Source of the DNA: Planctomycetota bacterium
GTDB lineage: Bacteria > Planctomycetota > UBA1135
NCBI GenBank assembly: GCA_029243845.1
Contig: JAQWRF010000028.1
Coordinates: 1 to 11,272 of the forward strand
Direction of reading: 5' to 3'
DNA: 11,272 nucleotides
The notes under the pieces were generated by a model. It saw only the letters and a program-made list of their open reading frames with translations, had not been told where the DNA came from and ran no database searches. This document shows, one piece after another, positions 1 through 11,272 of this stretch. Each line of letters begins with the position of its first letter. Position 1 is the first letter of the stretch. A program made the translations under genes and the position numbers.

Positions 1-396
1 GGCGATCGCAATCGACTACGTGACATCATCACCCTACTGTTTATGATTGCACTAGCGGATGGCGAGCTGCATCCACGGGAAAAAACGCTTATTGGCCAAA
101 TTGCGCAGGCTATGGGGCTAAACATGCATGATGTCGAAAACTGTGAAGCGACATATAGAGCCACCCGAGGAGGCGGGTCTTCTACATCTATAAGTGATGC
201 TTATAAAGTATTAGGCGTCAATCAAAACTCTAGTGATGCTGAAGTTAAAAGTGCGCACCGCAAATTAGTACGTGAGTATCACCCAGACGTACTAGCGTCT
301 AAAGGATTGCCAGAAGATTTCCTAGAGTATGCGCAACAAAAAATGGTTGCCATCAATGACGCCTGGGACGTGATTAAAGAAAAGCGCGGTATGTAA
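1..396 (+). CDS. TerB/J-domain (DjlA-like) co-chaperone, 3' part
   Basis: The reading frame is open from base 1, so this gene starts before the window; the ATG at 43 lies inside a conserved helix and is not the likely start. The 131 visible residues hold the end of a TerB/DjlA-type helical domain (about 1-52, with 'ALADGELHPREK'), a short Gly/Ser linker (57-63) and a C-terminal J domain (about 66-126). The J domain carries the diagnostic HPD tripeptide at visible residues 94-96, which in this family stimulates the ATPase of a DnaK-type Hsp70. In E. coli DjlA the TerB-like part follows an N-terminal membrane segment; whether one exists here cannot be seen. The gene ends with TAA, 6 bp before the stop of the convergent gene at 403. 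The family call is firm; the client and location are unknown. Confidence 0.88.
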   Translation, partial: GDRNRLRDIITLLFMIALADGELHPREKTLIGQIAQAMGLNMHDVENCEATYRATRGGGSSTSISDAYKVLGVNQNSSDAEVKSAHRKLVREYHPDVLASKGLPEDFLEYAQQKMVAINDAWDVIKEKRGM

Positions 397-400
397 TTCG

Positions 401-418
401 GTTTACAGAACCGTAAAC
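401..418. terminator. hairpin at convergent gene ends
   Basis: GTTTAC (401-406) and GTAAAC (413-418) form a perfect 6-bp stem around a 6-nt loop. The hairpin lies 4 nt after the stop of the J-domain gene and overlaps the last codons of the opposing small gene. It has no U-tract on either strand, so it is not a classical intrinsic terminator; a role in ending convergent transcripts is inferred from position only. Confidence 0.3.
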
Positions 419-771
419 GGCAAGCGATTCGTTTCGGTACCCCACAAGAGGCCGTCTTTCATAAACACTTCGCTGCTACCTGACCCGGTGATTAACGGCA
501 CCGCTGAGGCTATGACTGTAATCCGTCCAAGCAGTGGGACTCTAATCGACCTACTCCGCAAAACAGGAGAAAACCCAACGCCGACGAAAACGAAATTGTC
601 TGGCTGAAGATTAGCACCTATTAGGAGAAATGGGGACAGCGGAGCGCCTTCGGCTGGAAACGCGAACCACAGCTCGCCAGGATTAGACAAAGTCTGAGGG
701 AAATCAGTAGAAGCTACCTCTCCACCAATAGGAGCAAAAAGTAGTACCGCCGCGAGTGCCAAATTCTTCAT
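403..771 (-). CDS. small secreted protein of unknown function
   Basis: Predicted protein of 122 aa. Residues 1 to about 20 form a signal peptide: Lys at position 3, a hydrophobic run 'LALAAVLLFAP', then a small-residue region ending near 'EVAS'. The mature part is rich in Pro, Gly, Leu and Val and looks like a small beta-rich domain; it ends '-NRLPFTVL'. Its alternating hydrophobic pattern loosely resembles the C-terminal domain of the sulfotransferase-like protein at 7321, but I cannot align them securely. No catalytic motif is seen and I do not recognise a family. Support for it being real is the export signal, its good fit between neighbours (6 bp from the convergent stop, 26 bp from the divergent serB start) and a -10-like box ahead of it. 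No Shine-Dalgarno sequence is present. Confidence 0.65.
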   Translation of the reverse strand: MKNLALAAVLLFAPIGGEVASTDFPQTLSNPGELWFAFPAEGAPLSPFLLIGANLQPDNFVFVGVGFSPVLRSRSIRVPLLGRITVIASAVPLITGSGSSEVFMKDGLLWGTETNRLPFTVL

Positions 772-797
772 TTAGAAACTATATCATATACAGCGCA
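772..797. promoter_or_regulatory. divergent overlapping promoter, -10 boxes
   Basis: The 26 bp between the two divergent starts contain the near-palindrome TATATCATATA (780-790). Reading plus, TATCAT (782-787) ends 10 nt before the ATG at 798. Reading minus, TATGAT (788-783) ends 11 nt before the ATG at 771. Both match the TAnnnT form of a bacterial -10 box and overlap each other. Any -35 elements would lie inside the opposite gene. Transcripts from either would have leaders of only a few bases. Confidence 0.45.
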
Positions 798-1439
798 ATG
801 CCCGCCTACGACTTAGTGTTTTTTGACTGTGACTCAACCTTGTCTTCCATAGAAGGCATCGATGAATTAGCCAGCCGCGCCGGTGTTGACGTAAGCGAGC
901 TAACCAACGCCGCTATGGACGGCCGCCTGCCGATGGAAGACGTTTATCGCAAGCGTCTCGAGATGATTAATCCGACACCTAAAGATTTTGAATGGTTAAG
1001 TAGGCTGTATATTTTGACTGCTATCAAAGACGCAAAATCGGTTATTGCAAAGCTGCATGCCTGTAAAGTTGATGTGCATATTATTTCCGGAGGCCTTCTG
1101 CCCAGTATTCTGGCCTTTGCGCACCACCTTGGGATTGCTCCAGAGAGAGTGCATGCGGTCCCCTACGATTGCGACAATCCCGAACCAAGCTATGTTCACC
1201 CTCTAGCCAATAACGGTGGCAAGCCCGCAGTGGCAGAATCGGTAGGTGAAAAGTTGGGTGTACCGCGCGAGCGCCGCTTACTCATCGGCGATGGTGTTTC
1301 CGATCTTGAGGCTAGCAGCGTTGTTGGCCAGTTCGTTGGCTTCGGCGGAATCATCGAGCGAGATGCCGTGAAATCAGCTGCAACACAATATATTGCGGAT
1401 CCCCTACTAGAACCTCTACTAGATATGGTTTTACAATAA
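798..1439 (+). CDS. serB: phosphoserine phosphatase (HAD family)
   Basis: Hydrolyses O-phosphoserine to serine and phosphate, the last step of the phosphorylated serine pathway. The 213-aa protein has the HAD motifs in order: motif I D10-C-D12-S-T (nucleophile and acid/base Asp), E19 in the SerB-specific 'IEGID' segment, the cap region with 'AAMDGRLP', motif II S97-G-G, motif III K142, and motif IV G164-D165-G-V-S-D169 (usually GDGxND). A start at 756 would add 14 residues and run into the divergent gene; the ATG at 798 puts the DxDST motif near the N-terminus as in known SerB proteins. There is no N-terminal ACT-like domain, so this is the short form. It is followed after 6 bp by the aminotransferase and lies in an operon with serC- and serA-type genes, which supports phosphoserine as substrate over other HAD substrates. 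Confidence 0.9.
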   Translation: MPAYDLVFFDCDSTLSSIEGIDELASRAGVDVSELTNAAMDGRLPMEDVYRKRLEMINPTPKDFEWLSRLYILTAIKDAKSVIAKLHACKVDVHIISGGLLPSILAFAHHLGIAPERVHAVPYDCDNPEPSYVHPLANNGGKPAVAESVGEKLGVPRERRLLIGDGVSDLEASSVVGQFVGFGGIIERDAVKSAATQYIADPLLEPLLDMVLQ

Positions 1440-1445
1440 CGACCA

Positions 1446-2519
1446 ATGAAGCTGTTCATCCCAGGCCCCACCCAAGTTGCTCCTGAAATATTAGCCGAAA
1501 TGGCCAAGCCCGCCATCGGCCACCGCACCGCTGAATGCGCGCGCTTATGGCGAGAATCGCGCGATGGTTTGCAAAAATTAATGCATACCAAAAACGAAGT
1601 GATGATTCTTACCGCGCCGGCCTCTGCATTTATGGAAGCGGCCATTCGCAACACCGTTAAAGAAAAATCACTGCACTTAATCTGTGGTGCGTTTTCCAAG
1701 AGATGGTTCGACATCGCCAAGTCAACTGGTGTTGACGCAATAGCCGTCGAGAAAAAAACCGGCCAAGGTTTTAGCGCGGATGATTTGCGCAGCGCCCTCA
1801 ATGAATGCGGCACTGTTGATGCAGTAACTGTTGTGCATAACGAAACTTCAACTGGGGTCACTAACCCTGTTCAAGACTACGCCGAGGTACTAAAAGATTT
1901 CCCTGATACTTTGTTGTTAGTTGATACGGTTTCATCGATGTCCGGCATGCCGGTCTATGTTGACAAATGGGGTATCGATGTTTGCTTGTTCGGAGTGCAA
2001 AAATGCATGGCCCTACCTGCCGGCGTCGCGATCGCATCTGCCTCGCCGCGCGCACTTGAACGCGCAGCGACTATTGAATACCGCGGGTGGTTCTTAGATT
2101 TTTTACGCTTGGCAAAGTCAAATGAGAAAGAGCAATCACCGACTACCCCGAGTACGGCGCACCTTTACGCACTAACCGCTCAGCTTAAGCGCATCTTCAG
2201 TGAAGGCATTGAGGCGCGTTGGAAACGTCATTATGAGATGGCGGCCTATGTTCGTAACTGGGCGAAAAGTCACGGCTACGAAATGTTCCCAGATGCCGGT
2301 TACTGTTCTGACACGGTCTCTTGCATAGCTCGCGGAACGGGTCCTGATTTTGTACCTGTGCTTGATGCGCTAAAAGAGGAAGGCGTTCTTGTTTCAAATG
2401 GCTACGGTGATTTGAAAGGAAAAACTTTCAGAATAGGACACCTCGGCGAGCATACTCTTGACGACATGCGTCAACTCACCGAACAATTTGACTCGATACT
2501 CGAACCCGTCCTTAACTAA
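1446..2519 (+). CDS. serC: class V aminotransferase, probable phosphoserine aminotransferase
   Basis: PLP-dependent enzyme of the serine-pyruvate/alanine-glyoxylate aminotransferase family (fold type I, 357 aa). Visible landmarks are the N-terminal 'FIPGPTQVAPEIL', 'GHRTAE' (25-30), 'HNETSTG' (131-137), the PLP-pyridine Asp in 'VDTVSS' (D160), the Schiff-base Lys in 'GVQKCM' (K186), 'PTTPS' (232-236) and the substrate-carboxylate Arg in 'RIGHLG' (R329). The usual SGSGT-like phosphate loop reads 'TAPASAFMEA' here. By sequence alone it could be an alanine-glyoxylate or serine-pyruvate aminotransferase. Its place between serB and serA argues that it converts 3-phosphohydroxypyruvate and glutamate to phosphoserine, as this subfamily does in several bacteria lacking classical SerC. 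Its stop TAA is directly followed by the serA ATG, so the two are probably translated in a coupled way. No Shine-Dalgarno sequence is seen. Confidence 0.85.
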   Translation: MKLFIPGPTQVAPEILAEMAKPAIGHRTAECARLWRESRDGLQKLMHTKNEVMILTAPASAFMEAAIRNTVKEKSLHLICGAFSKRWFDIAKSTGVDAIAVEKKTGQGFSADDLRSALNECGTVDAVTVVHNETSTGVTNPVQDYAEVLKDFPDTLLLVDTVSSMSGMPVYVDKWGIDVCLFGVQKCMALPAGVAIASASPRALERAATIEYRGWFLDFLRLAKSNEKEQSPTTPSTAHLYALTAQLKRIFSEGIEARWKRHYEMAAYVRNWAKSHGYEMFPDAGYCSDTVSCIARGTGPDFVPVLDALKEEGVLVSNGYGDLKGKTFRIGHLGEHTLDDMRQLTEQFDSILEPVLN

Positions 2520-3497
2520 ATGGCAACGGTCTTCATCGCAGACAAAGTCGCCGACGACTGCGTCGCCATGCTGCAGCAGTCTGGCTTTAATGTAATCAAC
2601 AAGCCAGGACTCGAGGTTTCCGAAAAATTAGATATCCTCGCTAGCGCCGACGCCCTTATCGTGCGTTCGGCGACGAAAGTAAACGCGGAAATGTTTGCTG
2701 CTGCGCCAAACCTAAAAGTTGTCGGGCGTGCAGGGACTGGTGTCGACAACATTGATTTAGAAGCAGCCAACGCAAGCGGTGTTTGGGTAATGAATGCGCC
2801 AGGTCAAAACACTTTGGCCGCTGCCGAACATGCCTTCGCTTTGATGATGACCATGTGCCGTAACATCCCAGCTGCTGACTCGCGCATGCGCTCGGGCGAT
2901 TGGAGTAAAGGCGGATTGATGGGGACTGAGCTTGACGGCAAGACATTAGGCCTAGTAGGCCTCGGGCGGATTGGCCGCGAAGTGGCTAAGCGCGCTGCCG
3001 CATTCAACATGCGAGTCATCGGATTCGATCCGTTTTTGTCAGCGCAAGATGCTGGCCAATGGGATATTGAGAAATGCGAACTGAGCGATGTGTGGGCGCA
3101 AGCCGATATCATCAGCTTGCATGCACCGATGACTCCTGAAACTAAGCATGTGCTTAATGCAGCAAGTTTTGCACAATGCAAAAACGGTGTGCGCATCGTA
3201 AATTGCGCGCGCGGTGGCTTAATCGACGACAACTCATTAGTTGACGCGCTTGAAACCGGCAAAGTCGCGGGCGCGGCGCTCGACGTATTCGAAGTAGAGC
3301 CCCTACCGGCAGATCATGCCTTCTTGACGAATCAAAATGTAATTGTTACGCCGCACCTCGGCGCATCAACATTCGAATCGCAAGTTAAGGTGGCGACGGC
3401 AATCGCACGACAGTTTGATGCCTTCTTTAATCACGACGACATTCAGTGCGCGGTTAATGAACCTGTCGTGAATGGCAAAACAGCGCCTTCTGTTTAG
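2520..3497 (+). CDS. serA: D-3-phosphoglycerate dehydrogenase, short form
   Basis: Oxidises 3-phosphoglycerate to 3-phosphohydroxypyruvate with NAD+, the first step of serine synthesis. The 325-aa protein is a D-2-hydroxyacid dehydrogenase: a split substrate domain (about 1-98 and 285-318) around a Rossmann NAD domain with G147-L-G149-R-I-G152 and the ribose-binding Asp at D170. The catalytic set is R231 ('NCARGG'), E260 ('DVFEVEP') and H279 ('PHLGAST'). 'VGRAGTGVDNID' (68-79) is typical of SerA. It ends right after the substrate domain, so the ACT domain that lets serine inhibit many SerA enzymes is absent, as is the intervening domain. It starts at the base after the serC stop. A relative such as hydroxypyruvate reductase is possible by fold, but the operon makes SerA by far the best call. 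Confidence 0.92.
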   Translation: MATVFIADKVADDCVAMLQQSGFNVINKPGLEVSEKLDILASADALIVRSATKVNAEMFAAAPNLKVVGRAGTGVDNIDLEAANASGVWVMNAPGQNTLAAAEHAFALMMTMCRNIPAADSRMRSGDWSKGGLMGTELDGKTLGLVGLGRIGREVAKRAAAFNMRVIGFDPFLSAQDAGQWDIEKCELSDVWAQADIISLHAPMTPETKHVLNAASFAQCKNGVRIVNCARGGLIDDNSLVDALETGKVAGAALDVFEVEPLPADHAFLTNQNVIVTPHLGASTFESQVKVATAIARQFDAFFNHDDIQCAVNEPVVNGKTAPSV

Positions 3498-3513
3498 AGC
3501 TGTATATCTTTAC

Positions 3514-4605
3514 TCACTCTGCATTGCAGGTGTAACTGCAAACTTTTGCGTCGAGCAATCGCTGCAGTAATGTATTGCCAAGTGCGGTAGCTGGAGTCGT
3601 AAAGCCAATCGCTTGTGACTCGTTAGCAACCAAGGCGAGGCCAGTATGAATGAGACACCTGACAGTAACGGTGTTGCCGGGGTCGCCGGGCCATGTAAAC
3701 GTTAGACGCAGTGGATTGCTGCAATCATCTTCAAGAAAAGTATGCTTGACGAATCCGTTTGCAATAATTTTTGCTGATGGGCCTTCCCCTGGTTTCGGAC
3801 CTAATTTGCGAAGCACACTGCGGCCGACCGAACAACTCATCAGCCAGCCCATGAGCCCAAAGTAACCCCTGACTAAGTGAGCAACAAGTTTGTTTGGAGT
3901 CAAAAGATGCTCGTGATAATCGACATTACAATCTAATGAAACCACCCTCTCATTGATTGGGGCCATCACGAAATCCGTTGCGTATTTATTTAACGCTGCA
4001 ACTTTAAATACACCCGGGCGCATGGGCTTAGGTACAACAATTTTGTCTTCAGCTAGCTTTAGCCCTGAAGCTAAAGTTCCGCCATTTAGCCCGCCGCGCA
4101 TGGAATAGTAGCCGCCAAAGGACTTGATGGTGCGCCCGTCGAGCGCAATGCGCTTCAAAAATTCTTGCGCGCCGAGTGAGGCCGGCACTGAATCAAAGCC
4201 GCTTGATGGAATGAGAGTGACTTCATTCGCCAAGGCGTCGGCGCCATACTTAGTGGTCATTTCTTCAATCCAATGGGACTCGCCAGTCAAGTCTGCGTAA
4301 TGGCATTTATTTTTCACGCATGCAGCCACCAATTTTTCTCCGAAGCTTGCGAACGGCCCTGCGCACGACAAGACGACGCTGCAGTTTTTGGTTAATTCAT
4401 CTAGCTGCGGTTCGCTAAAAGCATCTGCAATCAAAAACTCGCAATTAAACTCTGTAGCGAGAGCTGATAAACGTTTGCTATTACGGCCGCTTATCGCCCA
4501 GCGAAGATTGGGCGGTGCAATATTAGATAGTTCGCGGACGGCGAGGCGCCCAGTAAAGCCCGTTGCGCCATGAATTATTAAATCAAATTGCCTAATTTTT
4601 CTCAC
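3514..4605 (-). CDS. saccharopine dehydrogenase-like NAD(P) oxidoreductase
   Basis: Predicted 363-aa protein of the saccharopine dehydrogenase-like/trans-acting enoyl reductase family (SCCPDH type). A Rossmann fold opens with 'GATGFTGR' (13-20), followed by 'AISGRN' (37-42), 'CAGPF' (81-85) and 'HYADLTGE' (about 102-109), then 'SGFDSVPASLG', all typical of this family. Members act on varied substrates (lipid-linked enoyl groups, saccharopine-like adducts), so the reaction is unknown. The frame is open upstream to 4941, but that extension runs antisense through the selenoprotein gene and has no family match. I chose GTG at 4605 because it gives the usual short N-terminus ('RKIRQFDLIIHGATG'). 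ATG at 4638 is the alternative and would overlap the divergent start. It is the only gene here that stops at TGA; it converges on serA with a 16-bp gap. Confidence 0.82.
   Translation of the reverse strand: MRKIRQFDLIIHGATGFTGRLAVRELSNIAPPNLRWAISGRNSKRLSALATEFNCEFLIADAFSEPQLDELTKNCSVVLSCAGPFASFGEKLVAACVKNKCHYADLTGESHWIEEMTTKYGADALANEVTLIPSSGFDSVPASLGAQEFLKRIALDGRTIKSFGGYYSMRGGLNGGTLASGLKLAEDKIVVPKPMRPGVFKVAALNKYATDFVMAPINERVVSLDCNVDYHEHLLTPNKLVAHLVRGYFGLMGWLMSCSVGRSVLRKLGPKPGEGPSAKIIANGFVKHTFLEDDCSNPLRLTFTWPGDPGNTVTVRCLIHTGLALVANESQAIGFTTPATALGNTLLQRLLDAKVCSYTCNAE
3524..3541. terminator. hairpin just beyond serA
   Basis: TTGCAG (3524-3529) and CTGCAA (3536-3541) form a perfect 6-bp stem with loop GTGTAA, 27 nt after the serA stop. 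On the plus strand it is followed by A-C-TTTT, a poor U-tract. It overlaps the 3' end of the opposing oxidoreductase gene. It may end the serBCA transcript; the evidence is only shape and position. Confidence 0.35.
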
Positions 4606-4636
4606 GTCCTTAGTGTAACACGTTAGGATAGGTGGC
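4606..4636. promoter_or_regulatory. divergent promoter, -10 boxes close to both starts
   Basis: The 31 bp between the divergent oxidoreductase and selenoprotein starts hold a minus-strand TACACT (4617-4612), 6 nt before the GTG at 4605, and a plus-strand TAGGAT (4624-4629), 7 nt before the ATG at 4637. At that spacing transcription would begin at or next to the start codon, giving leaderless mRNAs. AAGGA directly abuts the GTG and is too close to act as a normal ribosome binding site. No convincing -35 was identified. Confidence 0.4.
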
Positions 4637-5581
4637 ATGAAATTAAACTCCATCACTTTGAGTTTTGTCGCCACTTTAGCACTATCTTCATTGATCTTTG
4701 CGCAAGACGACAACCAAGCTAAATACGATAAAAAAATAAAGGCTGGCTGGATTAAAGCAGGCGGCTGGGAATTAGACCACGGCAAAGCAATGGACGCCGC
4801 CAAGTCTGAGGGCAAGTACATCTTGGCGTACTTCTCTCGTTCATATGCACCATGACCGCCTTGTGCAAGTCTTGAGAGCGGTCTGCTCTCAAGCGAAGAA
4901 TTTGCAGAATGGGGCGAAAGTGTTTCCCTATGGTACAACATGACAACAAAAATAGAGGGTCACCCCTCTGACGCTTTAGCGCGGCGATATGGGATACGTA
5001 GCTTCCCTACACTGATGATTCTTGATGCCTCTGGCAAAAAAGTGGCCACTCCAGCCGGGCGCAGTATTGAGGCATTCGATAACTCGCTGAACAACCTTCG
5101 CCAGCTAGATAGCTTGCGTGAGCGTGAATCAAACGGAGAAAAAGGCCTTGGTGCTTCAATCCTGCTAGCCGAATTGCGCCTAGGATCGATTGACTTCGAA
5201 GAAGGCTCAAAACGTCGCAGTGGCTTAAAGATTGTCAAAACAAGAAAATTTGATAAAGCGCAGTGGGAGTCCGATCTTGCAGAGATAGATGAGATGCTGT
5301 TTAACCTCGAGCTGGCCGAGCTATTCCAAAACACTGGTCGTGATGAAGAGAGCCAAGCAGCTCTAGCTGAAGAGTTGTACGCCATGGCAAAGAACGGCAA
5401 GTTCGCAAGTGGCAATATGGCCGCTCGCTACTGGAGCGTGGTTATGGATGCCGCCAAGGATAATAAAGATAAAAAAATCTTTGGGCAAGGTTACGGAATT
5501 CTTTACGAAATGTACAAGGACAACCCGCGCGCTAAAGAGTATCTAGCCGGCATGAAAACCGAGCTTGATGCTATGAAGTAA
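4637..5581 (+). CDS. exported thioredoxin-like selenoprotein (UPPC), TGA read as Sec
   Basis: Reading TGA 4853-4855 as selenocysteine gives one continuous 314-aa protein. Residues 1-22 form a signal peptide ending '-LIFAQ', so it is exported. The thioredoxin-like domain spans about 45-145: 'KYILAYFSRSYAP' leads into U73-P-P-C76, where relatives have CPPC, and 'GIRSFPTLMILD' supplies the cis-Pro (P124). Both halves are in the same frame and join without loss of any conserved piece. Residues about 150-314 are charged and helical, perhaps TPR-like. A perfect hairpin follows the TGA (4871-4893). Expected role: thiol-disulfide or peroxide chemistry outside the cytoplasm, with Sec as the attacking residue. 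Without recoding only a 72-aa fragment would be made. Alternatives are a real nonsense mutation or a sequencing error (TGC or TGT to TGA), but the TGA at exactly this residue, the hairpin and a second such gene at 9607 argue for Sec. The partner is unknown. Confidence 0.85.
4853..4855 (+). other. UGA selenocysteine codon (residue 73)
   Basis: In-frame TGA between 'SRSYAP' and 'PPCASLES'. It stands at the first Cys of a thioredoxin CxxC motif, the position where Sec is expected in natural thioredoxin-like selenoproteins. The frame continues for 241 more codons to TAA. Confidence 0.83.
4871..4893 (+). promoter_or_regulatory. bacterial SECIS hairpin
   Basis: CTTGAGAGC (4871-4879) pairs perfectly over 9 bp with GCTCTCAAG (4885-4893); the loop is GGTCT (4880-4884). 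The stem starts 15 nt, and the loop 24 nt, after the TGA. Bacterial SECIS elements sit inside the coding sequence just after UGA and present a GU in a small apical loop to SelB; the same GGUCU string occurs, from memory, in the E. coli fdhF SECIS. A short GCAA (4865-4868) / TTGC (4902-4905) pair could extend the base. There is no bulged U in the upper stem, unlike E. coli. Confidence 0.8.
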
Positions 5582-5599
5582 GAGCAATTACTTATCTTG

Positions 5600-7273
5600 T
5601 TAACGGGGCACCTTAACACCGTGCCTCGTCATGCAGTCCACTGCCTCGTCATATCCTGCGTCAACGTGACGCACAACACCCATTCCTGGGTCGTTAGTAA
5701 GTAATGCTTCAATACGCTTGTCGGTTTCTGGGGTGCCATCGCAACAAATGACCTGGCCAGAGTGTTGCGAGTAACCGATACCCACTCCACCGCCGTGGTG
5801 CATGCTCACCCAACTTGCTCCACTTGCAACAGCCAGCATACCATTAAGTAACGGCCAATCAGCGATGGCGTCTGAGCCATCTTTCATAGCTTCGGTTTCG
5901 CGGTTAGGACTTGCGACCGAACCACAATCTAAGTGGTCGCGGCCAAGCACGATTGGCGCTGATAGCTCACCATCGCGAACCATTCGATTAAATTCGAGTC
6001 CGGCAACGTGACGCTCGCCATAACCCAACCAACAAATACGACTAGGCAAACCTTGGAAGGCGACACGTTCGCGCGCCATCTTTAACCAACGATGCAAGTG
6101 TGCTTTCTCTGGGAACAAGCGCATCAGCGCAGCGTCGGTTTTATAAATATCTTCTGGATCTCCACTAAGCGCTGCCCAACGGAACGGCCCTTGCCCTTCG
6201 CAGAATAGTGGGCGAATATAAGCCGGCACGAAGCCGGGAAAGTCAAACGCATTTTCGACACCTGCTTCTTCGTTAGCGAAAGCTCGCAAGTTGTTGCCAT
6301 AGTCAAAAGTTTCGGCACCGCGTTTTTGCAGCTCTAACATTTGCTCAACATGGCGACCCATCGTTCGGAACGACTGCTTTTGATATTCGCCGGCATCATT
6401 GACACGCAATGCCTCAGCGTCGGCAAGTGACATGCCGTCTGGAACATAACCACCAAGGGGGTCATGCGCTGAAGTTTGGTCCGTCAAAATATCAGGAGTA
6501 ATCTCGCGATCGATTAATGCTTGCAACAACTCGGTGGCGTTACAGCAAACACCAATACTTACCGCCTCGCCGTTTGCCTTAGCTTCTAAAGCGCGGGCAA
6601 TCGCTGCATCCATACTCTCGGCGCATTCGTCAAGGTAACGGGTGCGCAATCTCATATCGATGCGCGCCTGCTCTACATCCGCAATCAAACACGCACCTTC
6701 GTTCATCGTAACTGCCAAAGGCTGCGCGCCACCCATGCCACCAAGCCCAGCGGTAACCGTCAAAGTGCCTTTCAAAGAATCGAGGCCGCGCTGCTTTGCA
6801 AGTGCCACTAAAGTCTCGTAAGTACCCTGCAGAATGCCTTGGGTTCCAATGTAGATCCATGAACCCGCCGTCATCTGACCGTACATCATTAATCCTTTAT
6901 CTTCAAGATCGCGGAAGGTCTCCCAGTTGGCCCACTTGCCGACTAGGTTTGAATTTGCGATCAACACCTTTGGAGCGTGCGCGTGCGTTCTAAAAACCGC
7001 AACGGGTTTACCGCTTTGCACCAACATCGTCTCGTCAATTTCTAACTCTTGCAAAGTCTTTACTATAGCTTCGGCTGCTGGCCAGTTGCGGGCAGCTTTG
7101 CCTGTCCCACCGTAAACCACTAAATCTTCCGGGCGCTCGGCAACTTCTGCATCGAGATTGTTCAAAAACATGCGCAGCGCGGCTTCAGCATGCCAATCCT
7201 TGCAGTAAAGCTTAGTTCCGGTCGGAGCTTTTTGCGCTCCAGGAGAAATTGTTAGGCGCTTATGGGGTATCAT
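5600..7273 (-). CDS. hutU: urocanate hydratase
   Basis: Converts urocanate to 4-imidazolone-5-propanoate, the second step of histidine breakdown, using tightly bound NAD+ as an electrophile. The 557-aa length is normal for HutU. Hallmarks are '[15 protein letters not shown]' near the N-terminus, the NAD-binding '[10 protein letters not shown]', '[20 protein letters not shown]', 'RICWLGYG' with C414 (matching the catalytic Cys near 410 in Pseudomonas), '[20 protein letters not shown]' and '[15 protein letters not shown]'. The frame is open to a TTG at 7297, but the ATG at 7273 gives the standard N-terminus ('[12 protein letters not shown]'). No hutH, hutI or hutG lies nearby, so the pathway genes are scattered or the enzyme acts alone. 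It converges on the selenoprotein gene with an 18-bp gap and diverges from the gene at 7321 over 47 bp. Confidence 0.97.
5603..5629. terminator. hairpin at convergent gene ends
   Basis: ACGGGGCAC (5603-5611) pairs with GTGCCTCGT (5621-5629) over 9 bp including one G-U, with a 9-nt loop. It lies 21 nt after the selenoprotein stop and spans the last codons of hutU. Neither strand has a U-tract afterwards. It is the strongest of three hairpins at the window's three convergent junctions; a termination or mRNA-end role is inferred from position. Confidence 0.35.
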
Positions 7274-7320
7274 GGTGTAATATTGTAAAACCACCAATAT
7301 GGTTTGGGGGTTGAATAGCC
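7274..7320. promoter_or_regulatory. divergent intergenic region with hutU -10 box
   Basis: On the minus strand TACAAT (7287-7282), one mismatch from TATAAT, lies 8 nt before the hutU ATG, so the hutU message is probably leaderless. On the plus side GGGGG (7306-7310) is 10 nt from the ATG at 7321 and is a doubtful ribosome binding site; TATGGT (7298-7303) is a possible -10. No operator-like repeat is obvious. Confidence 0.4.
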
Positions 7321-8889
7321 ATGCTCATTTCGCTGCTCCTCTCAGCCTTAGCCGCCCCCCAACAGGACGGCTTGATTCTTGTCGGTCCTAGCTCAAGCAC
7401 CGATACTTTCTTGCTAGACAACAGCGGTGTAAAATCTCACACTTGGACTACATCAACATATCAACCTGGCCAAGCTAGTTATCTGACTGAGTCCGGGCAT
7501 CTTATTCGCACGGTACGCGTTTCAGGATTAGCCGCTTCGACGATTGGCGGCTCTGGTGGCGGAGTCGAAATTTACAATTACGACGACGTGCTGATTAGCG
7601 ATTTCTTTTATGCGAGTGACGACCATCTACTGCATCACGATATTGCCGTAATGCCTAACGGCAATATCCTTATGATTGCATGGGAGAAAATTCTTGATAT
7701 TGACGTAATTGCCGCCGGACGCGACGCCGGGATAACCGGTCCATTCATGTGGTCTGAGTCTATTCTTGAAGTCGACATGACAACGGGCAGCATCGTTTGG
7801 CAATGGCACGCAATCGACCACATGGTGCAAGACCGAGATGCAAGCAAGCCGAACTATGGGGTCATTGCCGACAACCAAACTCGCCTCGATATTAATCAGC
7901 CAACTAACCGCCCGGGTAATAATGATTGGCTGCACTTCAACGCTATTGATTACAATGCCCACCTCGATCAAATTGCTATAAGCAGCCGCGTACTCAGCGA
8001 AATTTTTATCATCGATCACAACACTACAACCGCGCAAGCCGCAGGTGTTGACGGAGACTTTTTATATCGCTGGGGTAATCCAGAAAACTACGACCGCGGC
8101 ACCCCTGCCGATCGCATGCTTCAAAGTCAGCACGACATCCAGTGGGTCGCCGACGACTGCCCGGGCGCTGGCAACTTAATTGTTTTCAATAATGGTAGTC
8201 CCGGACCGTCAGCAGCATCAACAATTGATGAGTTCACGCCGCCGCTAGATCCGGCAACGGGTACCTACGCAATCGGTTTAACTGGGGCATATGGGCCAAC
8301 ATCTCTTGCATGGACCTATGACCCAACGCCGTCCTTTTTTGGCAGCCACACTTCAGGATGCCAGCGCCAGCCGAATGGTAACACCTTGATTTGCAACGGT
8401 CCGGCCGGAGAATTGTTCGAAGTCGACCCTGCCGGGAATACCGTCTTTAACTGGGCTTACTCCACCACCTCAAATCCTGGCATTTTCAAAGTTCGTCGCT
8501 ATCAAACCTCTTTGTTTCAAGATGAAGACATTTTTCATGCCAACACTGGGGGTACCGTTGATTTCGACCTCGCCGCTGGGAGCATGAATGCCGGTCGCCG
8601 CTATGTGATGGTTGGCACGATGTCGGGCACTTCTCCTGGAACAACTATCGGTGGGCTAAATATTCCGATTAATGCTGATGCCTTTACGAGCATCACTCGA
8701 TCTGCGGCTTACTCTAGTTTTTTTCTAGACTTCCAGGGTAATCTAGACTTGCTTGGAAATGCTACTGCGCGGATGGTCACCGGCCCAATCCCGTCATCAT
8801 TTGTGGGACGCACCATGCATTTTGCATACGTACTCCTTTCGCCGCTCGATTATTCGTCTAACGCAACGGGAGTAGAAATCGTATTCTAG
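7321..8889 (+). CDS. secreted arylsulfotransferase-like beta-propeller protein
   Basis: Predicted 522-aa protein. Residues 1 to about 12 are a short signal peptide ('[11 protein letters not shown]'). About 30-405 resemble the arylsulfotransferase (ASST) family, a six-bladed propeller that moves sulfate between phenolic donors and acceptors outside the cytoplasm. Family-like strings are '[14 protein letters not shown]' (H105/H106), '[12 protein letters not shown]', '[12 protein letters not shown]', '[13 protein letters not shown]', 'SQHDIQWV' (H271), 'GNLIVFNNG' and '[13 protein letters not shown]'. The last hundred residues or so form a separate domain with '[18 protein letters not shown]', a type I associate with secreted planctomycete proteins. 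I cannot identify the catalytic His with certainty, and many members of this family are uncharacterised, so sulfotransfer is family inference. It heads a run of four plus-strand genes, with the next one 6 bp away. Confidence 0.8.
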
Positions 8890-8895
8890 CCCACT

Positions 8896-9606
8896 GTGAT
8901 AAAGCTCACCTCACTTTCAATCATTTTGGCGCTCGGCTCTTGTACCTCTGCGCCAACCACCGAACTCAATACTTGGGGCAGCATGAAGACTGTGCTTGCT
9001 CAAGGCAAAACAGCAGCGCGAATCGCGCTGGCGGATGCGATCACGCCACATTCTGTTGGTATCGGCGCACTTGCGGGCCTTGAAGGCGAACTCACCATCC
9101 TAGATGGCGTAATTCACGCAGCGCGCGTAACTCCCAACTACGCCCTCACTTCTACAAAACTTACCGGTAGCCAAACCGACGACAGTGCAACGTTGTTGGC
9201 CATCTGCGAAGTGGCAGAATGGGAAACCGTCTTGCTTGGCGAAGTGTCTAGTTTGAGCGCACTCGAAACAATTGTCGCCGCTGAGCTCATTGATCGTGGC
9301 TTCGACATGACGCGGCCCGTACCGTTTAAGGTCGAGGCAACGTTCTCCGAAATTTCGATTCACGTGCTAAATAATTCATGCCCAATTGCAAACCCTGACG
9401 GCCCAGAACCTTGGCGTGGCAACTTCAATACTAAAAATGGCCACCTAGTCGGTCTTTATGCGGTAGGCTTCGGAGGCGAGCTCACTCACCATGGGTCAGA
9501 TTCGCACATCCACGCCATCGTTCTCGACGGCGATGTAGTTAATTCATCAGGCCATGCCGAATCATTTGCACTCGAGCCAGGTTCTATCCTCTACCTCCCT
9601 AAGTAA
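8896..9606 (+). CDS. acetolactate decarboxylase-like lipoprotein
   Basis: 236 aa starting at GTG. The N-terminus is a lipoprotein signal: hydrophobic run, then lipobox L13-G-S-C16, so the mature protein would be lipid-anchored at Cys16. The rest resembles alpha-acetolactate decarboxylase (BudA/AlsD), a zinc enzyme turning acetolactate into acetoin. 'IGALAGLEGELTILDGVIHA' (56-75; E63 and E65) matches the substrate-pocket strand, and H204-x-H206 followed by H220 ('GHAESF') matches the metal-binding HxH...H set. The spacing from the second to third His is 14 residues, 3 more than I recall for the Brevibacillus enzyme. Known decarboxylases of this family are usually cytoplasmic or secreted in fermenters; a lipoprotein next to a sulfotransferase-like protein suggests another substrate. 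It lies 6 bp after the gene at 7321, and its TAA directly precedes the next ATG. Confidence 0.75.
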   Translation: MIKLTSLSIILALGSCTSAPTTELNTWGSMKTVLAQGKTAARIALADAITPHSVGIGALAGLEGELTILDGVIHAARVTPNYALTSTKLTGSQTDDSATLLAICEVAEWETVLLGEVSSLSALETIVAAELIDRGFDMTRPVPFKVEATFSEISIHVLNNSCPIANPDGPEPWRGNFNTKNGHLVGLYAVGFGGELTHHGSDSHIHAIVLDGDVVNSSGHAESFALEPGSILYLPK

Positions 9607-9921
9607 ATGTCTGCAACCGTCTGGTTTAACCCAAACTGATCGAAGTGTCGAAGTCTCAAGCAGTTGCTTGCGGACGCCGGTCGTGACGCCGAATATCGCC
9701 ACTACATAGATCAACCACCCACCCTCGCCGAGCTTCAAGACCTGTTCTCAAAGCTCGACATCGCACACCCCTCACAGATGATGCGTAGCGATTTCACCGT
9801 GTCTGACACACCTGAATCTTGTTTATCTGCTATAGTCGATAACCCAAGTCTTTTACAGCGACCCATTTACATTGACTCAACAAAAGCTGTAATTGCTCGT
9901 CCTCCAGAATTAGCTCTCTAG
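9607..9921 (+). CDS. ArsC-family selenoprotein (USKC), TGA read as Sec
   Basis: Reading TGA 9637-9639 as selenocysteine gives a 104-aa protein of the ArsC/YfgD family (thioredoxin-fold arsenate reductases using glutathione/glutaredoxin). The start 'ATVWFNPN' then U11-S-K-C14-R matches the family's 'NPxCSKSR' active site with Sec in place of the catalytic Cys. The three Arg residues that bind the oxyanion in E. coli ArsC have counterparts at R60 ('MMRSD'), R85 ('QRPIYI') and R98 ('ARPPE'). C14 replaces the usual Ser, creating a UxxC pair. The loop after R60 is about 9 residues shorter than in YfgD and lacks the 'YKELGL' part. Without recoding, the start codon would lead to only 10 residues, and the remainder lacks the first strand and active site. 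The ATG directly follows the upstream stop (TAAATG), so translation is likely coupled. No arsR or efflux gene is nearby; the substrate may not be arsenate. A nonsense mutation is the alternative. Confidence 0.84.
9637..9639 (+). other. UGA selenocysteine codon (residue 11)
   Basis: In-frame TGA in the context N-P-N-[UGA]-S-K-C-R, exactly at the catalytic Cys of ArsC-family proteins (Cys12 in E. coli ArsC). The frame then stays open to the TAG at 9919-9921. Confidence 0.83.
9653..9675 (+). promoter_or_regulatory. candidate bacterial SECIS hairpin
   Basis: CAAGC (9657-9661) pairs with GCTTG (9666-9670) around the loop AGTT (9662-9665). After a small internal loop (T9656 opposite C9671-G9672) GTC (9653-9655) pairs with GAC (9673-9675). 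The loop begins 22 nt after the TGA and contains GU, matching the position and loop rule of bacterial SECIS elements and close to the 24-nt distance in the gene at 4637. The stem is shorter than that one, so confidence is lower. Confidence 0.55.
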
Positions 9922-9959
9922 TTCATGGAACAATCTTTCCCTTTTACCGTCCATTATTA

Positions 9960-11272
9960 ATGAACATCTCCCTCTTACTTAGCTCCATCCTCCTCGCCTC
10001 ACCGCAAAGTGCTCTCGATAGCACTGACGTGGCGCAATTCGTTGAACAAGCCGGCGTCCGTGAATTTACAGGCCGCTTAATTGTTCGTCCTCTACAGAAT
10101 GAAACTACGCGCGATCAAGCATCGCAGTTACTTTCGTCTTACGGCTTGATCGAATACGTCAAGGCTACCGACGAATACGTTATTATTCTGCCTGAAGGTC
10201 AAAACGAAAATAGCCTGTCACGGTCTCTTATGAGCACCGGCTTAATGCAATACGCCGAACCTGATTACATGCTCTACCCGGTGAACACGACACCAAACGA
10301 TCCTAATTTTAATTCGCAGTGGCATCATTCAAAAATGCGCTCAGCCGAAGCGTGGGATTTCGGAACTGGCGATGGCACCTTCATCGCTTGTACTGTTGAT
10401 ACTGGCGTTGATTTAAATCACCCCGACCTTCAAGCTAACTTAGTTTCAGGGTACAACTCTGCTGATAGGGTAGAACAATCAAGCGGTGGCCAAGTCGGAG
10501 ACGTTAACGGCCACGGCACCATGACTTTAGGTTGTGTAGGCGCAATTGGTAACAATGGCGTTGGAGTGGTAGGCATGGCTTGGGATATCAAGCTTATGCC
10601 TGTTCGATGCTCGAATTCATCAGGTGGCGGTGCTTACCTTTCGGACCTAACCGACGGCGCACGTTGGGCTGTTGATAATGGCGCACGCGCTGTTTCGGTA
10701 AGCTATTCTGGCGGCGAAAGCGGCAGTGTAGAATCGACCGGATCATACGTTCGCAGTCAAAATGGTTTGATGAGCTGGGCATCCGGCAACGGTGGCAATC
10801 GAGTTAACGGCTCCGATCACGCAAACGTGATCATGGTTGGCGCGACCAATTCCTCGGACAGTCGCACAAGCTGGTCAACATACGGTGACTGGGTTGATGT
10901 TGTGGCTCCTGGAGACAGCATACGCACAACTACAAACGGTGGCGGCAACGGTGCTGCAAGTGGCACATCCTTCTCAACGCCTATCGTGAATGGTGTGATT
11001 GCAATGATGATGATTGCCAGCCCTAGCTCAACGCCAAACGAAATCGAACAAATGTTGTTTGATAACTGCGTTGACATAGGTTCAGCAGGCGAGGACATCT
11101 ACACCGGCCACGGACGCCCGGACTTCTTCGGCTGCATGGAAGCGGCTGACGCTGCTGGCGGCGGTGGCAGTGGTGGCAACAACACTATTACACTAACCAC
11201 TACGAGCAATAATCCTGCAGCGGGTTCAAGCTTCTGGTTAAGTGGATATGATGCTCCAGCATCTGCGCCTTA
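9960..11272 (+). CDS. secreted subtilisin-like serine protease (S8), 5' part
   Basis: The window ends inside this gene; 437 residues are visible. Residues 1 to about 17 are a signal peptide ('ISLLLSSILLASPQSA'). About 36-105 form an inhibitor-I9-like propeptide ending in 'YAEPDYMLYPVNTTPNDP'. The S8 catalytic domain follows, with D147 ('VDTGVD'), H185 ('NGHGT'), oxyanion N277 ('ASGNGG') and S337 ('GTSFSTP', usually GTSMATP). From about 403 comes a Gly/Ser/Asn linker ('GGGGSGGNN') and the start of another domain, as in large secreted subtilases with C-terminal modules. All catalytic residues are intact, so it should be active after propeptide removal. It starts 38 bp after the ArsC-like gene and may share its transcript. 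No Shine-Dalgarno sequence precedes the ATG, and I see no clear promoter in the gap. Confidence 0.93.
   Translation, partial: MNISLLLSSILLASPQSALDSTDVAQFVEQAGVREFTGRLIVRPLQNETTRDQASQLLSSYGLIEYVKATDEYVIILPEGQNENSLSRSLMSTGLMQYAEPDYMLYPVNTTPNDPNFNSQWHHSKMRSAEAWDFGTGDGTFIACTVDTGVDLNHPDLQANLVSGYNSADRVEQSSGGQVGDVNGHGTMTLGCVGAIGNNGVGVVGMAWDIKLMPVRCSNSSGGGAYLSDLTDGARWAVDNGARAVSVSYSGGESGSVESTGSYVRSQNGLMSWASGNGGNRVNGSDHANVIMVGATNSSDSRTSWSTYGDWVDVVAPGDSIRTTTNGGGNGAASGTSFSTPIVNGVIAMMMIASPSSTPNEIEQMLFDNCVDIGSAGEDIYTGHGRPDFFGCMEAADAAGGGGSGGNNTITLTTTSNNPAAGSSFWLSGYDAPASAP

Follow-up and report, generated by a model that had tools for sequence, protein, structure and literature searches.

A probable exported selenoprotein with a thioredoxin fold in a planctomycete, and the multi-copy family around it

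Does a TGA codon inside a thioredoxin-like active site end a gene, or does it encode selenocysteine (Sec)? The question is raised by a stretch of 11,272 nucleotides, here called the window, from a Planctomycetota bacterium (UBA1135; assembly GCA_029243845.1, contig JAQWRF010000028.1, positions 1-11,272, forward strand). The frame 4637-5581 on the plus strand is interrupted only by a TGA at 4853-4855 (codon 73, SRSYAP-U-PPCASLE). Standard calling yields two open reading frames (ORFs) here, of 72 residues (4637-4855) and 213 residues (4940-5581), as the initial annotation of the window had foreseen. Its description of one exported-type frame, split by the TGA at the first position of a UPPC motif, was exact in every detail that we checked. 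We conclude that 4637-5581 is very probably a real selenoprotein gene, and that its product is a predicted exported thiol-disulfide oxidoreductase of the cell envelope.

The codon at the Sec position was compared in 136 distinct sites. These go back to 186 loci, whose matches were aligned to one profile; deduplication left 145 matches, and nine without a residue at the Sec column were left out. The loci were taken from the stronger matches, with or without TGA, of a search of 61 genomes (the own genome and 60 relatives) and a search of the phylum, not from every match, and the weak-score part of both match lists is dominated by general thioredoxins without TGA. The initial annotation had expected TGA or Cys at the aligned codon of homologues, and the column holds TGA in 126 sites, TGC or TGT in six, and TGG, TAC, AGC and TTG in one each. 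Two of the six Cys sites (L031, L114) have lost the second Cys. The 61 genomes contain 62 matches at E <= 1e-15, 56 of them with exactly one TGA. The phylum profile search matched at least 189 of 392 genomes at E <= 1e-10; in at least 81, from about 30 family codes, the best match is 1e-30 or better, and the strong matches listed mostly hold one TGA.

In the databases, 26 full-length homologues have Cys (24) or Ser (2) at the Sec column. The remaining homologues are pieces of 186-247 residues that begin behind the active site, as expected if they were mis-called Sec members. Downstream of the TGA, six pairs of relatives give ratios of nonsynonymous to synonymous substitution rates (dN/dS) of 0.07-0.27; a seventh pair has a saturated dS. 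Judged from these comparisons, the sequence before and after the TGA is under purifying selection, the opposite of the decay of the downstream half by which the annotation would have been undone.

Behind the TGA we confirm the perfect 9-bp hairpin that had been reported, with the arms CTTGAGAGC (4871-4879) and GCTCTCAAG (4885-4893) around the loop GGTCT (4880-4884). It starts 15 nt after the TGA, the distance from TGA to loop is 24 nt, and its energy is -14.3 kcal/mol. According to the available part of PMC13188914, a bacterial Sec insertion sequence (bSECIS) has a loop of 3-9 nt with a G in its first two positions and a stem of 4-16 bp, lies 16-37 nt after the UGA, and has an energy of -7.5 kcal/mol or lower. 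The window hairpin falls within all these limits, and 116 of the 126 TGA sites fall within those for loop, spacing and energy (stem length was not scored separately), which bears out the SECIS proposed earlier. Compared with synonymous-codon randomisations the window hairpin is unusual (z -3.3, 2/200). The mean energy of the TGA sites is -13.2 kcal/mol, against -9.2 for their randomisations; for the ten non-TGA sites the values are -8.8 and -7.9 kcal/mol.

The stem also covaries. In 28 sequences the 7-bp core has standard pairs in 95.9% of cells, against 81.8% after shuffling (0/500 as high) and at most 67.3% when it is slid to other registers, and its covariation score is 0.522 against 0.259. 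In three of the seven pairs both partners are third codon positions, where joint changes are hardly dictated by the protein. Among 124 distinct sequences these three pairs are standard in 83, 116 and 101, all above the maxima of 2000 shuffles (82, 113 and 83). The choice between a chance and a real hairpin is made by the comparative evidence, i.e. TGA in 126 of 136 sites, the covariation of the stem, and the single TGA in 56 of 62 matches.

The own genome encodes a tRNA-Sec (74.7 bits, cut-off 47) with the anticodon TCA according to ARAGORN, selB (293.6 bits with its neighbour stretch, cut-off 242.25), and selD as a fragment at a contig end. Of the four sel genes that the initial annotation had named, selA is missing from this list; among the checks it proposed that were run, this is the single one without a favourable outcome. 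It is matched in 59 of the 61 genomes, including both others of the same genus, and tRNA-Sec is above the cut-off in 56.

Several observations weigh against a selenoprotein. The own assembly, 84.8% complete, yielded no selA, and no family match was found in G001, a genome of the same genus (83% complete). A close member of the family (L024, G013:C69, at a contig start) has TGG at the Sec codon with 7/7 pairs of the hairpin intact, which suggests a recent change or loss, or an assembly error. The window hairpin is unremarkable among dinucleotide shuffles, 34/200 and 20/200 of which fold at least as well in two runs. Ten of the 126 TGA sites fall outside the SECIS limits, and just 55 of them beat the synonymous randomisations singly at p <= 0.05 (2 of the ten non-TGA sites do). 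Two of the five covariation measures, pairs with both partners changed and additional pair types, are not above shuffles, of which 343 and 496 of 500 reach as high, and the shuffles leave the relatedness of the sequences in place. In a fixed register all seven pairs form in only 65 of the 124 distinct sites; some of the others are, by eye, slipped by two. Taken together, the selenoprotein proposed in the initial annotation is strongly supported by TGA conservation, covariation, SECIS, selB and tRNA-Sec, and selection. The genomic data support a conserved UGA, a SECIS, the Sec machinery (selA excepted) and a thioredoxin fold; insertion of Sec and export are predicted for the window protein.

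The annotation had also regarded exported Sec-containing proteins of this type as rare, and the gene as perhaps one of a new or little-described subfamily. This was too modest, as the family is multi-copy, occurs in about 30 planctomycete family codes and has Sec as its commonest state. Tandem copies are found in relatives, e.g. L135 with three TGA sites, and one genome (G037) has seven family matches with one TGA each, two of them partial. At three loci (L108, L168, L178) a paralogue has Tyr, Ser or Leu in place of Sec and is possibly a redox-dead copy; L108 holds a TGA copy too.

A FastTree tree without an outgroup was built from 161 rows (125 Sec, 30 Cys, 6 other), one of 162 rows being left out. 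It requires at least 20 changes between Sec and non-Sec states, compared with a mean of 33.8 and a minimum of 30 in 200 label shuffles, and the non-Sec rows fall into 19 groups set among the Sec rows. Repeated replacement of Sec would be the simplest reading of this unrooted tree. It is this nesting that suggests an ancestral Sec state.

In three relatives of the same family (L015, L018, L020) the frame continues beyond a second TGA and reaches a heavy-metal-associated domain, with PF00403 above the cut-off in 3/3. This TGA (L015:2503, L018:2500, L020:2518) occupies the first Cys position of the domain (GMTU or GMRU, then xxxC), and a foldable stretch lies behind it. The three products are likely double selenoproteins, as far as sequence can tell. 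Beside another family member (L118, G138), a separate frame on the minus strand reads ...VHGMTUGGCAARL..., a motif of the heavy-metal-associated type with TGA at the first Cys. By a narrow preference we see the family as an unrecognised, Sec-first redox system of the planctomycete envelope, i.e. multi-copy exported selenoproteins with a thioredoxin fold and a helical domain, including double selenoproteins, in which Sec is ancestral and Cys its repeated replacement.

What would the window protein do? Its thioredoxin-fold domain is modelled by AlphaFold2 with a mean pLDDT (predicted local distance difference test) of 92.9, and the helical domain, modelled alone from residue 160, with 96.7. PF13098 is found at 29.2 bits, above the Pfam gathering score of 27; among 29 family members, PF13899 is found at E <= 1e-3 in 28 and PF13098 in 16. 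The best PDB matches of the thioredoxin-fold domain are DsbH and DsbD-gamma. Of the 122 TGA sites with a visible upstream stop, 120 have a hydrophobic stretch at the N-terminus. A layout with Sec as the nucleophile, a Cys after it and a Phe-Pro pair opposite is that of a thiol-disulfide oxidoreductase, and we take Phe123-Pro124 to be the cis-Pro position of this fold. Because of the likely export, the resemblance to DsbH and DsbD-gamma, and this layout, an envelope disulfide reductase or isomerase appears the likeliest role. For the net direction we favour reduction, with modest confidence.

In the mechanism that we propose, SelB and tRNA-Sec would decode UGA 73 as Sec, steered by the hairpin just downstream. 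The exported protein would consist of a DsbH/DsbD-gamma-like thioredoxin domain followed by a helical domain, which perhaps binds protein. The selenolate of Sec73 would attack a substrate disulfide, and Cys76 would resolve the mixed selenylsulfide. The Se-S bond could then be recycled by an electron donor, for instance the DsbD-type membrane protein of the genome; a DsbD_TM protein (C166) is found in the own genome, and 59 of the 61 genomes have one.

The most serious alternative grants Sec and differs in function. The protein might be an isomerase or oxidase, or use Sec for handling metals or metalloids or for peroxide reduction in the envelope. We consider this possible and clearly the lesser option. 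The three relatives with a second Sec in a C-terminal heavy-metal-associated domain fit such a role, the fold alone sets no direction, and no neighbour or partner fixes a reductase. Among the family loci no recurrent neighbour gene pointing to a substrate was found, which also tells against the role that we prefer. However, the metal-binding fusion was seen in three genomes only, and the UxxC and Phe-Pro layout together with the resemblance to DsbH and DsbD-gamma indicates thiol-disulfide exchange.

The other alternatives deny Sec, and all are very improbable. Another tRNA could decode UGA 73 as Trp or Cys without any selenium, an idea that can appeal to the TGG of L024 and to the C that follows the TGA in many sites. 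However, the usual alternative to TGA is Cys, not Trp, a SECIS-type hairpin stands at a fixed distance, and tRNA-Sec and selB are present. Under the standard code, the other large ORFs checked in the window read without interruption, and TGA is the stop of one of the nine listed. Equally improbable is that UGA 73 is a true stop and each ORF a protein of its own, the second with Met102 as its start. Standard calling splits the gene in this way, and such pieces are in databases, but Met102, the start of the 213-residue ORF, is kept in only 2 of the 126 TGA sites, the thioredoxin fold would be split between its active-site residues, and the Cys relatives are single full-length proteins. Least probable of all is a sequencing error or a recent pseudogene, which the origin of the window from a single contig of a metagenome-assembled genome would allow, since the TGA recurs in the 65% identical relative L012 and in over a hundred others, the 96% identical database cluster P0002 begins at the same internal Met, and dN/dS downstream is well below 1.

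The features of the selenoprotein gene are listed in Table 1, together with a second candidate about 4 kb away.

Table 1. Positions of the predicted selenoprotein gene, its parts and the second candidate gene in the window.
Feature	Position	Strand	Details and basis
Whole selenoprotein gene (predicted)	4637-5581	+	From ATG to TAA, with UGA for Sec at codon 73; 314 residues
Likely signal peptide, residues 1-22	4637-4702	+	By inspection; suggested cleavage between ...LIFA and Q
Thioredoxin-fold domain, about residues 37-160	4745-5116	+	AlphaFold2 model, PF13098, PDB matches
UGA read as Sec (predicted), Sec73, UPPC position 1	4853-4855	+	Aligned TGA in relatives
Cys76 codon, UPPC position 2	4862-4864	+	Invariant in alignment A1 (29 sequences)
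SECIS hairpin (predicted), 9-bp stem, loop GGTCT at 4880-4884	4871-4893	+	Folding, covariation
Phe123-Pro124 pair	5003-5008	+	Both residues invariant in alignment A1 (29 sequences)
C-terminal all-helical domain, about residues 165-313	5129-5575	+	Predicted structure
ArsC-family gene, MSATVWFNPN-U-SKCR	9607-9921	+	TGA at 9637-9639, catalytic Cys position

The second candidate belongs to the ArsC family (PF03960, 33.3 bits, cut-off 24; against TIGR00014 it scores 78.4, under the cut-off of 106.05). Standard calling finds only an 85-residue fragment with a TTG start at this locus. ArsC matches occur in 35 of the 61 genomes, and the Sec column of 20 fetched matches holds TGA in three, all of the genus of the window and including its own gene, and TGC or TGT in 17. 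The hairpin, with the loop AGUU 22 nt after the TGA, has an energy of -12.9 kcal/mol and is not unusual among shuffles (43/200). The gene is likely a second selenoprotein gene; by the codons of its relatives, its Sec state would be limited to the genus and that of the thioredoxin family older. A second gene nearby with TGA at a catalytic Cys was counted in favour of a selenoprotein at 4637-5581.

Directly upstream of the ArsC gene, at 8896-9606 on the plus strand, lies a gene for an acetolactate-decarboxylase-like protein (PF03306, 27.3 bits, cut-off 25), and 7321-8889 on the same strand encodes a protein of the arylsulfotransferase family (PF05935, 78.9 bits). A HAD phosphatase, a class-V aminotransferase and a 2-hydroxyacid dehydrogenase follow each other at 756-3497, plus strand, presumably a serine-synthesis cluster of serB, serC and serA.

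Sec-containing UxxC proteins of the thioredoxin fold are well known, according to the available parts of PMC13188914, PMC2398784 and PMC1088965. No paper on the present family was found in a search by titles and the beginnings of abstracts, most subscription papers and preprints being outside it. Neither a 2016 survey (PMC5029168) nor a 2026 review (PMC13188914) mentions a planctomycete, going by a word search of their main texts. PMC4807772, in the part available, has a table of putative selenoproteins of two planctomycetes, with which the family may overlap. A large selenoprotein family has seemingly gone unnoticed because its genes are split by gene callers, hiding the signal peptide and the active site, and selenium use in Planctomycetota would therefore be underestimated. 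If the reading is true, some genomes reach through this family alone the threshold of six genes for being 'selenoprotein-rich', as that term is used in the accessible portion of PMC5029168. The many natural replacements between Sec and Cys offer material for asking why an exported enzyme keeps Sec, and a Sec-aware profile would mend the annotation at once.

Among known systems, no NCBIfam model exceeds its cut-off for the window protein. At E <= 1 it has no match to Trx7/PDZ, VPGUxxT, SaoT, GOS_C or HUIPC. TsoB (NF045694), Trx7/PDZ (NF041199) and VPGUxxT (NF041382/NF041383) are alike in the thioredoxin-like region and differ in Sec motif and architecture; of 29 family members, 18, 11, 2 and 5 have weak matches to TsoB, Trx7/PDZ, NF041382 and NF041383, respectively, and the TsoB score of the window protein is 16.7 against 805 bits. 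With DsbH (NF043050, 'disulfide reductase DsbH'; PDB 2ju5, 'DsbH Oxidoreductase') it shares the DsbH-type thioredoxin fold; however, it scores 28.5 bits where the cut-off is 190, has Sec for the first Cys and carries about 150 extra residues as a helical domain. Unlike DsbD-gamma, the C-terminal domain of DsbD, it is not fused to a membrane domain, has a C-terminal helical domain and belongs to a family where Sec is usual. The comparison with the GOS groups Trx-like 1, 2 and 3 (PMC2398784, in the part available) is by label, Pfam/CDD domain and motif only, and members of the window family could be lumped within them. According to the same part of that source, the Sec-containing 'thiol:disulfide interchange protein' ('Trx-like 2') also has PF13098 and UxxC, and it counts 22 Sec against 2,098 Cys sequences, whereas in the window family Sec predominates.
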